Shown here: positions 76-51,183 of the stretch, piece by piece
Layout: the number at the start of each line of letters is the position of its first letter
Numbering within the stretch: the first letter of the stretch is position 1
NCBI GenBank assembly: GCA_013695765.1
Contig: JACCZW010000020.1
Coordinates: 1 to 55,829 of the forward strand
Length of the DNA: 55,829 nt
Reading direction: 5' to 3'
Origin: Gammaproteobacteria bacterium
GTDB lineage: Bacteria > Pseudomonadota > Gammaproteobacteria > JACCYU01
Position numbers and translations under genes: made by a program
The notes under the pieces: generated by a model
The model's database searches: none
Told to the model about the DNA's origin: nothing
Seen by the model: the letters and a program-made list of their open reading frames with translations, nothing else

Positions 76-552
76 TCAGAGCTTATCGAAACCCTCAGGC
101 TGTCCAAACAATGGGGTCCACTCCACATCCATAGCTGCGCTAGCCGGCAAGAAAAAAATATCTGACACAAGTTGTTTCCTGATGAGATCAATATTTTGCC
201 GAATTTTTTCTTTATTGTACCTAGCCTCAGAAAAACGTTCAAGCACGGCAGATAGCGGAATAAGGGGAGAGAAGACGACATTACGGTCGGGGCGGGATGG
301 ATTATCCGGATTGATGTCGCAGCTATTCGAAAGGATCATGCCACGGACTTTAAGAATCTCGTTATCATCCTTAATGGCGAATCCCGCCCAGCCATCTCCT
401 TGCAGGGCTTTTTCTGTCGGGGCGGGCAAAATGTAGTAATCGCGAAATTCAGAAAAGCGCTTAAGCTGTTCCGTTACTTTGTTGTAGTCTGCCTCGCTCA
501 AATACGCGGGTAGATGACTTCGGATCACCTCCGCAAGTTCGTCGGGCTCCAT
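76..552 (-). CDS. Hypothetical protein, second gene of a coupled pair with a TIGR04255-like gene
   Basis: A 158-residue soluble protein of unknown function; no signal peptide or membrane segment. It carries the segment ILSNSCDI (about residues 73-80) followed by VVFSPLIPL (about 92-100), a pattern I have only a vague memory of from other uncharacterised proteins, so no function is given. Its ATG overlaps the stop of the upstream gene by one base (TAATG), which indicates translational coupling to the TIGR04255-like gene. Base composition is AT-richer than the housekeeping genes that begin near 1800, so the pair is probably acquired. The gene ends only 75 bases from the window edge, so further genes of the same island may lie outside. 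Confidence 0.6.
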   Translation of the reverse strand: MEPDELAEVIRSHLPAYLSEADYNKVTEQLKRFSEFRDYYILPAPTEKALQGDGWAGFAIKDDNEILKVRGMILSNSCDINPDNPSRPDRNVVFSPLIPLSAVLERFSEARYNKEKIRQNIDLIRKQLVSDIFFLPASAAMDVEWTPLFGQPEGFDKL

Positions 553-1343
553 TAATCACTCACATACATTGCTCGGCGATTGCGATAAAGCAGCTTGCGA
601 GCGTCTGCATCGAGATCAATCTCGCTAGCTGAAAGCATGCTCGCTACCTCAGAGAGCGCTTCACGCATGCTCTGGTTACCTGTTCTCGCAGAAGTAGGTA
701 AGCCGCCTTGTGAAGAGCTGCGTACGTGTAGCCTTAACGGACTGTAGGATGTGTCAGATACGAGCGGAATGACATGCGTCATTCGCTCGCTATACAAATT
801 CGACCCGGCCACGCCAGTCAAAAGCATCAGCAGGACCGACCCTTTTAATTCTCGCGACGACACCGCCGTGGGAGCATACGGGTCAATAATAGCAGTAGCA
901 CTAAGTGACTTTAAGACACGGAGTACAAAAGGCTTAAAGAGATTCCAGCCGGGATATGGACGTTTGCAAAGTACGGCAAGAACTTTCGGGCCGAGCGCAA
1001 CTTGAAACTGTTCGCCGGTCATTAGCCTCTGCGGTTGATATTGAAGCTGAGGTACGCTCTGGATCACCTCAATGGGGAAACTGGCTTGCGGCAGTGTGGC
1101 TACATTGGGAAGATCTGTGCCCAGATCCTTAAATATCATGCCAAGGATTAGATCGCTCGCGCTCGGGCTAGACGGCTCGAACCGCAACTCGAAAGCAACA
1201 TCAATGATCGGCACCCGCCCGAGCCTCGTAGGTGTCCTGGAGTCGCTCGCAGTCGCGCGCGCGGCTACCTTGGCCAGCTTTTCGCGTCCCTTGCTACTCA
1301 AAGGTGCCTTACGTTTAGTCGATTGCGTCTTTCGAGCCGACAT
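552..1343 (-). CDS. TIGR04255-like protein of unknown function
   Basis: 263 residues. The first 30 residues are rich in Lys and Arg and look disordered. The body starts with IIDVAFELRFEP (about 46-57), then FPIEVIQSVPQLQYQ (about 89-103) and KRPYPGWNLFKPFV (about 127-140). The order of an EhR-F-P-type opening strand, a short V-x-x-GP strand and an aromatic P-Y-x-G-W segment matches my memory of the sporadically distributed TIGR04255 family, whose function is unknown. The assignment is from pattern only. It is the first gene of a two-gene unit (TAATG overlap with the next gene) in an AT-richer stretch, as expected for an accessory island. A defence or toxin-antitoxin role is possible but not shown by the sequence. 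Confidence 0.6.
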   Translation of the reverse strand: MSARKTQSTKRKAPLSSKGREKLAKVAARATASDSRTPTRLGRVPIIDVAFELRFEPSSPSASDLILGMIFKDLGTDLPNVATLPQASFPIEVIQSVPQLQYQPQRLMTGEQFQVALGPKVLAVLCKRPYPGWNLFKPFVLRVLKSLSATAIIDPYAPTAVSSRELKGSVLLMLLTGVAGSNLYSERMTHVIPLVSDTSYSPLRLHVRSSSQGGLPTSARTGNQSMREALSEVASMLSASEIDLDADARKLLYRNRRAMYVSD

Positions 1344-49854: not shown

Positions 49855-51183
49855 TCAGTTAGCGAACGACGCCATGTACGCTTCGATCTCGTTCGCTTCC
49901 CGTATCAACACTTCGGTCAACACATTATTGCCGTCACGCGTGACCTGCACGTTGTCCTCGATGCGGATGCCGATGTTGCGGTAGCGTTTCGGCACGCCGG
50001 GGCTCTTCGCCGCGATGTAAAGACCCGGCTCGATGGTCAGGGTCATGCCGGATTCCAGCAGTCGCCACCCGTCATCGCTGCGATAATCGCCTACGTCGTG
50101 CACGTCCATGCCCAGCAGGTGCGCCGTGCGGTGCATGTAAAATCGCCGATATTCGCCCTTTTTGATGAGACCGGCGGGCTTGCCCTTCAATAGCTCAAGA
50201 TTTATCAGCCCCCTGGTTAAAACCTTGACCGCGGCATCGTGCGGATCGTTCCAGTGATTGCCAGGCTGCACTTTCTGTATGGCCGCGCGCTGCGCCTGCA
50301 GAACCAGGTCGTACAACTCGCGTTGCGCGGGGCTGAAACGCCCGTTGATCGGGAACGTGCGCGTGATGTCGCTGGCGTAGCCTTCGCATTCGGCGCCCGC
50401 GTCGATCAATACCAGATCGCCATCGCGCAGGGTCGCGGCATTTTCGGTGTAGTGCAGGATGCAGCCGTTGGCGCCGCCGCCGACGATGGCCGAATAAGCA
50501 GGCACCATTCCGGCGCGGCGGAATTCGTACAGCAACTCGGCTTCCAGTTCGAACTCGGCCATGCCGGGCCGGCACACGCGCATGGCGCGCTCGTGCGCGC
50601 GCACAGAGGCTTCGGCAGCACTTTGCATCGCGCGGGTTTCAGGCTTCGACTTGTAAAGCCGCATCTCATGCAGCAGATATTCGAGCGATACGAATTCGCG
50701 CGGGGGACGGTTGCCGGCGCTGGCGCGCCCGCGCAACTGATTGACCCAGCCCATGAGCCTTTGATCGAATGCCGGGTCGCGGCCCAGGGTGCAGTAGACG
50801 CGTGTGTGTCCTTCCAGCAGGCCGGGCAGCTGGTCGTCGAGTTCATCGATGGGATATGCCTCGTCGGCACCGTAGTCTTTAACCACGCCCTTGGGGCCGG
50901 CGCGGCGGCCATGCCACGTTTCTTTCGCCTTATCGCGTTCGCGACAGAACAGAATGAAGCGACCGCCGCTTTGACCCGGAATCAGCACCGCCAGCGACTC
51001 GGGTTCGACGAACCCGGTGAGATACAGAAAATCGCTATCCTGACGGTAAGGATGATCCACATCGCGATTGCGCGTACGCACCTGACCCGACGGAATAATC
51101 GCGATGCTCCGATTGCCCATCATGCGCATCAGAGCACGGCGACGCCTGGCGAACTCTGTCGCGGTCACTATCTGACGCTGCAT
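49855..51183 (-). CDS. pepP: Xaa-Pro aminopeptidase PepP
   Basis: 442 residues from the ATG at 51183 (E. coli PepP has 441); the frame is open 33 codons more. Removes N-terminal residues preceding proline. The N-domain has FARRRRALMRMM, VDHPYRQDSDFLYLTGF; the pita-bread domain has metal ligands in DGDLVLIDAGAECEGYASDITRTFPINGRF, HRTAHLLGMDVHDVG, MTLTIEPGLYIA and IGIRIEDNVQVT. First of the pepP-sodC-ubiH-ubiI-regulator unit, divergent from the zapB-like and zapA genes, as in E. coli. Confidence 0.96.
   Translation of the reverse strand: MQRQIVTATEFARRRRALMRMMGNRSIAIIPSGQVRTRNRDVDHPYRQDSDFLYLTGFVEPESLAVLIPGQSGGRFILFCRERDKAKETWHGRRAGPKGVVKDYGADEAYPIDELDDQLPGLLEGHTRVYCTLGRDPAFDQRLMGWVNQLRGRASAGNRPPREFVSLEYLLHEMRLYKSKPETRAMQSAAEASVRAHERAMRVCRPGMAEFELEAELLYEFRRAGMVPAYSAIVGGGANGCILHYTENAATLRDGDLVLIDAGAECEGYASDITRTFPINGRFSPAQRELYDLVLQAQRAAIQKVQPGNHWNDPHDAAVKVLTRGLINLELLKGKPAGLIKKGEYRRFYMHRTAHLLGMDVHDVGDYRSDDGWRLLESGMTLTIEPGLYIAAKSPGVPKRYRNIGIRIEDNVQVTRDGNNVLTEVLIREANEIEAYMASFAN

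Follow-up and report, generated by a model that had tools for sequence, protein, structure and literature searches.

A decayed TIGR04255-containing cassette at a gammaproteobacterial contig end is the relic of a three-gene, putatively toxin–antitoxin-like module of phages and bacteria

The pair of overlapping open reading frames at the left end of the 55,829-nucleotide stretch of DNA analyzed here (the window, which is the entire contig C20 of its source genome) is almost certainly the outcome of ordinary genome decay, a fossil of a three-gene cassette whose members we name A, B and C. We regard the cassette as probably a tripartite toxin–antitoxin-like and anti-phage module with an exchangeable effector, of which the window holds the decayed remnant. 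Its elements are of kinds already known, namely a MazF-type fold, a toxin–antitoxin-like layout and phage cargo; of a constant A with exchangeable partners we found no description in the literature searched.

On the minus strand of the window, an ORF of 263 aa (552–1343) is followed by one of 158 aa (76–552), and the two overlap by TAATG, as a sequence-only reading had described. The larger scores 61.4 bits against the NCBIfam family TIGR04255 (sporadTIGR04255; cut-off 30), its residues 45–151 matching profile positions 6–116 of 252, and, since the profile is matched over that N-terminal part only, short of full length, the TIGR04255 likeness noted earlier is that of a truncated member. The site was compared with its counterpart in G001, a sister species and the one other genome of the genus that was compared, which is about 86% identical at the nucleotide level and has the same genes to its right. 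There the counterpart of the larger ORF is two genes, A (280 aa; 102.4 bits against TIGR04255, profile positions 6–252) and B (122 aa). As the window is shorter than G001 by a net 427 bp at this point, its larger ORF is the N-terminal half of A joined to B. The order A-B-C on a single strand is found in both genomes, with all three genes in G001, C being broken, and with parts of all three in the window.

The remnants can be delimited as follows, all three lying on the minus strand. Positions 903–1343 hold the N-terminal part of A, about 147–151 of the 280 sister codons (88% identity to G001; phrog_5464, E 1.6e-17). A deletion at about 892 has removed the remainder of A, about half of the gene, together with the beginning of B; its junction falls within 891–902, the exact base not being resolved. 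The B remnant (553–890; 81% identity to B of G001 over 111 codons) has lost its native start, and its stop TAA overlaps the ATG of C. The C remnant (126–552; phrog_4575, E 1e-23), with its start intact, retains 142 native codons of about 200 and has lost the C-terminal helix; it aligns with the sister copy and, at 34% identity (alignment A7), with the C protein of locus L014. The remaining stretch, 1–125 on the plus strand, is the end of a multicopy insertion sequence, with a transposase C-terminus at 2–57, that replaces the 3′ end of C: window 1–125/126 is identical to C48:2–127 and C94:2935–3059 of the same genome and diverges from them at 125/126, and in one of these two other copies a transposase C-terminus runs into the repeated sequence. 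Since this segment is multicopy and joined to the transposase C-terminus, positions 76–125, encoding on the minus strand the last ~16 codons and the stop of the 158-aa ORF, are insertion-sequence DNA.

In G001 the damage lies elsewhere, the reading frame of C there being interrupted by a TAG codon and shortened by 3 nt, which removes the Cys of SNSCDI, a residue invariant in the relatives. The dN/dS ratios between the two species are 0.17 (A, N-terminal part), 0.35 (B) and 0.22 (C), against 0.08–0.12 for three neighboring genes, from which we conclude that purifying selection acted on the module during most of the time since the species separated and that it was lost later, through different lesions in each. 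As read from these two genomes, the module was present at one chromosomal site before the species split. The DNA to the left of it in G001 has its counterpart near the end of C103, another contig of the window's genome. At that contig end (L297, 824–1062) lie 238 bases that match nothing in the sequences compared and contain a short ORF start, perhaps another mobile element.

The order A-B-C recurs in a Phocaeicola plasmid and in two Pseudomonas phages, VW-6S and Dobby. A search of 50,697 phage records with the window C and A gave four matches each, all in Pseudomonas phages and two of them the same Dobby genome. Among viral contigs, C was found at 40 loci, with A and B directly upstream in 39/40 (at L041 with broken frames) and the remaining locus cut at the contig edge; as 13 of these loci had gone into the profiles, this count leans on ORF positions. 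Bacterial genomes, when scanned, gave 64 loci, which by record title belong to Pseudomonadota, Desulfobacterota, Bacteroidota, Verrucomicrobiota, Campylobacterota, Bacilli and others. Profiles to which none of these 64 had contributed find A, B and C in 54 of them, some in fragmentary form. The other ten comprise six with C alone, two with B and C, one with A and C and one with A and B. Four of the C-only loci, all from Bacilli, still have three coupled genes, the first encoding 245–258 aa and the second 93–95 aa. The median gaps of −1 between A and B (n = 56) and of 4 between B and C (n = 53) are those of a tightly coupled small operon. The expectation that the genes would be neighbors elsewhere is thereby borne out in diverse bacteria and in temperate phages. 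As a conserved unit, the pair proposed from the sequence stands in that neighbors are kept together and falls in that they are three genes, not two, and in that TIGR04255 also has other partners: the ancestral unit is of three genes, and both window ORFs are products of its decay. The records themselves are incompletely annotated here. In that of VW-6S (L008, 8672–8989), B is annotated only from 8849, and as an integrase; in that of Dobby (L009, 1090–1854), A is annotated only from 1483; in OQ658368 no gene is annotated beneath the A match.

Across 73 of 73 aligned relatives, the sister copy excluded, C has eight invariant residues (Q46, D48, L71, S72, N73, C75, D76 and P133), most of which form the motifs Q-x-D and S-N-x-C-D. 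AlphaFold2 modeling of the intact C of L014, and not of the window fragment, gave a model (pLDDT 86.4, pTM 0.79) with a predicted MazF/PemK/CcdB fold over residues 42–189. VIA comparison aligned it with MazF-mt1 at Z 11.3 (rmsd 3.0 over 113 residues) and with CcdB at 9.7, a Z of 8 being reached by 133 of 995 chains. The best Foldseek match has an E of 2.5e-4 and a target TM of 0.74; the best 50 of 459 Foldseek matches are all MazF, mRNA-interferase or toxin entries, the YdcE and MoxT rows being counted as such, and four have E ≤ 0.001. Against a viral library, PemK-like phage proteins lead at E 0.0025, none falling below 0.001. Sequence profiles do not confirm a link between C and MazF (hhalign P 0.09), Pfam, PF02452 included, yielded nothing at an E of 1 or below either with the window C or with three intact C proteins, and a sequence search of the PDB with C returned nothing convincing (best E 0.43, to an unrelated molecule). 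The catalytic residues of MazF are an Arg and a Thr. When C is read against these positions by the weak hhalign alignment, V/A/I/T/P mostly fill the Arg column, with no R among the six commonest residues (70/73), the Thr column holds Thr in 1/73, and a K/R lies two residues from the Arg column in 45/73. C is a predicted, divergent MazF-fold family, an addition to that fold whose invariant residues are unexplained.

B is small (97–119 aa in the selected set), with a borderline N-terminal hydrophobic segment as judged from its sequences: hydrophobicity in a 17-residue window peaks near residue 12 and reaches 1.6 in 33/60 and 1.2 in 56/60. At its extreme C-terminus it has a conserved tail, often N-[FL]-W-[DE]-L-[YI], and a loose pattern, written after the sequences had been viewed, fits 52/60. 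Small tailed partners of this kind resemble MazE. The Bacilli loci L145–L148 hold a diverged three-gene version, in which the second gene ends in NFFDYYE or NFYDYYA and, by eye, the hydrophobic segment is absent.

With regard to A, six of seven tested relatives pass the TIGR04255 cut-off, the seventh, the first gene of the Bacilli locus L145, giving no match. The AlphaFold model of A is confident (pLDDT 93.2), and neither Foldseek nor VIA found a clear solved relative of its fold. AdoMetDC and TBP take the top Foldseek ranks at a TM of about 0.3, and the best VIA score is Z 8.6, for Mediator Med20-type rows, with kinases next; from the model, the arrangement may be called TBP/AdoMetDC-like and no more, other, unlisted folds being possible. 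A sequence search of the PDB with A likewise returned nothing convincing (best E 0.82, an unrelated molecule). A clear metabolic homologue of either window ORF, which would have spoken against the sequence-only reading, did not appear in Pfam or NCBIfam, where TIGR04255 was the one family matched.

TIGR04255 is commoner than C, occurring in 34/369 sampled genomes of the window's class and in 30/398 of its phylum, with C in 7/369 of the class, a distribution as sporadic as had been supposed. The family has a name without a stated function and yet occurs in these 34 genomes. We noticed neither function nor partners in its entry; the present analysis connects A with a module of three genes in which the partners are exchangeable, a connection that gives TIGR04255 a testable role. 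Seventy TIGR04255 regions were taken from the class and phylum lists, the window, G001 and three fragments being excluded. Under our distance rules, one lacks a clear A ORF, six a coupled second gene and twelve a third gene; these misses include artifacts such as L229, which is the same place as L169, where HTH and long-C genes are present. The 63 regions with a second gene (L236 counted) divide into nine with C or close variants, fifteen with a longer C relative and an HTH-type middle gene, twenty with a WDGYG-type middle gene as grouped by clustering, six and four in two further paired clusters, three with a HEPN-like third gene, one with a PIN gene and five others. A C-family gene is visible in 22 of the 24 C-type regions, that of L279 being off the contig and that of L249 split. 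The PIN gene is the third gene of L230 (Pfam, 1.4e-8). The HEPN-like assignment comes from a PDB profile match (E 0.0014) of a three-sequence profile; Pfam does not call HEPN there, and a check by way of PF05168 relatives gave too few sequences. For the HTH-type middle gene, Pfam gives a match short of its cut-off (9e-4). Profile comparison links C to long C (E 4.2e-5, probability 69.5). Long C matches a DUF35 protein weakly in a PDB profile search (0.0029) and does not match MazF there. A recognized domain is lacking in many third genes. A third gene of 131–200 aa (cluster 4) recurs in eight regions, L255 (1630–2076), L273, L288 and L289 among them, following a WDGYG-type middle gene in 7/8; one that was tested has no Pfam match. 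The third gene of L225, L227, L260 and L264 (216–233 aa), which has conserved His and Cys motifs (HLAWH, LTC), looked by eye like a papain-type peptidase, an assignment dropped after a PDB profile search was unsupportive.

A quick tree of 81 A proteins (76 labeled), in which deep nodes are weak, has the type of third gene changing at least 15 times for seven types, the minimum possible being 6, and C versus not-C changing 8 times. The A of the HEPN module L248 groups with the A-B-C members L088, L249 and L099 (SH-aLRT 96). In the PIN module L230, A forms a group with its counterparts in L243 and L268 (98), two modules with unclassified partners, and this group is placed among A-B-C members with weaker support (65–83). 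The remaining two HEPN-like modules are found in other parts of the tree.

A-B-C looks like a little-described self-poisoning or phage-defense family, because C has a predicted toxin fold and is replaced in relatives by other toxin-type domains. Since the third slot has folds known from toxins, C is most likely the effector, and would be toxin-like and probably act on RNA or translation. The middle gene would fill a neutralizer or regulator slot, in which the tail of B would bind C much as MazF is bound by the tails of antitoxins; sister modules have an HTH-type protein in this slot, as antitoxin slots do. A, being the constant part, is the likeliest sensor or switch: it may free the effector on sensing a trigger, which would probably be damage or a product of the phage, and this release would lead to abortive infection or protect the lysogen. 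The layout resembles the MazF/PemK/CcdB toxins (MazEF-type systems) in the predicted fold of C, the toxin-last order and the small partner with a conserved C-terminal tail, and departs from them in that C has no profile link to MazF and no evident MazF catalytic residues, in its extra ~41 N-terminal residues and in the third component A. In PD-lambda-2 and CmdTAC (PD-T4-9), a toxin, an antitoxin and a third component are reported to be needed for defense or control (PMC9519451). To these A-B-C is alike in its three-part toxin–antitoxin-type layout, and unlike in that no common family was found and that A was not recognized as a chaperone or HigC-type partner.

The link to defense or to toxin–antitoxin-like systems in the sequence-only reading thus gains from the predicted toxin-type fold of C and from the PIN or HEPN-like genes that can stand in the third position instead; its defense part stays conjectural, and PADLOC is silent. 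PADLOC-DB 2.0.0 gave no model match for the two window ORFs, and among nine intact proteins none for three A and three C and a weak one (0.013) for one B. We found no mention of TIGR04255 or of five related accessions in the open-licence PMC literature. More tentatively, and as a proposal that we would not yet favor, TIGR04255 could be the constant sensor or switch of a large, undescribed family of tripartite bacterial immune modules in which both the middle gene (a tailed small protein, HTH-type, WDGYG-type and others) and the effector (MazF-fold, PIN, HEPN-like and others) are exchanged as cartridges, with C a new MazF-fold catalytic class having QGD and SN-[ST]-CD as its active site.

A role in conflict with phages fits the location of the module beside integrases and repressors. 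In VW-6S it lies between a CI repressor and an integrase; in the P2-like Dobby its neighbors are the portal gene and an integrase. Of 130 proteins flanking 24 viral loci, integrases and Q-like antiterminators are commonest, with six each, followed by HNH endonucleases, CI-like repressors and several unknown families with three to five each. In the bacterial loci L085–L144, integrases account for 7 of the 107 nearest flanking proteins, from which proteins over 900 aa had been removed, as counted among the best 25 of 181 PADLOC families and the best 25 of 148 Pfam families; the families so listed include single or paired R-M, TOTE and RhuM amid housekeeping genes. The chromosomal neighbors are mixed, and we claim no enrichment.

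The same neighborhoods of repressors, Q-like antiterminators and integrases would suit another reading, by which C is a non-toxic MazF-fold binding protein and A-B-C a prophage fitness or lysogeny-control cassette, and so would the invariance in C of a residue set other than the MazF catalytic positions, which are not evident there. We consider it unlikely, as PIN and HEPN-like swaps beside close A proteins fit an effector slot better and many copies are chromosomal, among ordinary genes. Less probable again is that A-B-C is a system already described, a three-gene one directed against P1 and known from the P2-like prophages of E. coli, which we take to be the one listed as Rst_3HP in DefenseFinder. 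Dobby, as a P2-like phage with A-B-C beside its portal gene, invites the comparison. In the original account, the three-gene E. coli P2-hotspot system has no predicted domains and protects against P1 (Rousset 2022, PMC9122126), and P2-like phages are said there to keep defense cargo on the portal side. The likeness is one of description, a P2-like phage in both cases having three genes that lack predicted domains; a search of E. coli genomes with one C gene at the DNA level gave no match, and the Dobby site is not established as the same hotspot, because its other neighbor is an integrase and not a replication gene. Finally, that the two window ORFs form a working, newly formed two-gene unit, an A-B fusion with a short C, is hardly tenable and was rejected: both frames are open and the coupling is retained, but the unit would lack half of A, the beginning of B and the C-terminal residues of C that are near-invariant in relatives (L169, S182, R187, R194), the sister copy is broken at other places, and three genes stand in the sister genome and in the 39 viral loci.

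The intact copies in VW-6S and Dobby are open to direct testing. Elsewhere in the window's genome lie genes for an ordinary PemK toxin and for a HEPN protein (C68:4152–4478 and C162:17195–17551).

As to base composition, the AT-richer character ascribed to the left edge is confirmed, 126–1343 having a GC of 0.512, below every one of the 87 equally long, half-overlapping segments taken to its right (mean 0.625, sd 0.025, minimum 0.534). Third-position GC is 0.50–0.55 in the three remnants, against 0.72–0.76 in three neighboring genes. Between the relic and the next, divergent gene lies an AT-rich intergenic stretch (1344–1803, GC 0.457). It contains, on the plus strand at 1669–1690, the terminator-like hairpin of the earlier reading, which is indeed present (z −2.48; equally stable in 4/200 shuffles) and has no demonstrated tie to the module; as a terminator it amounts to no more than chance, because the scan found one terminator-like site and shuffles average 2.5. 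A second AT-richer stretch, with a GC of 0.53–0.58 per kb, lies near the right end of the contig at 51001–54000.
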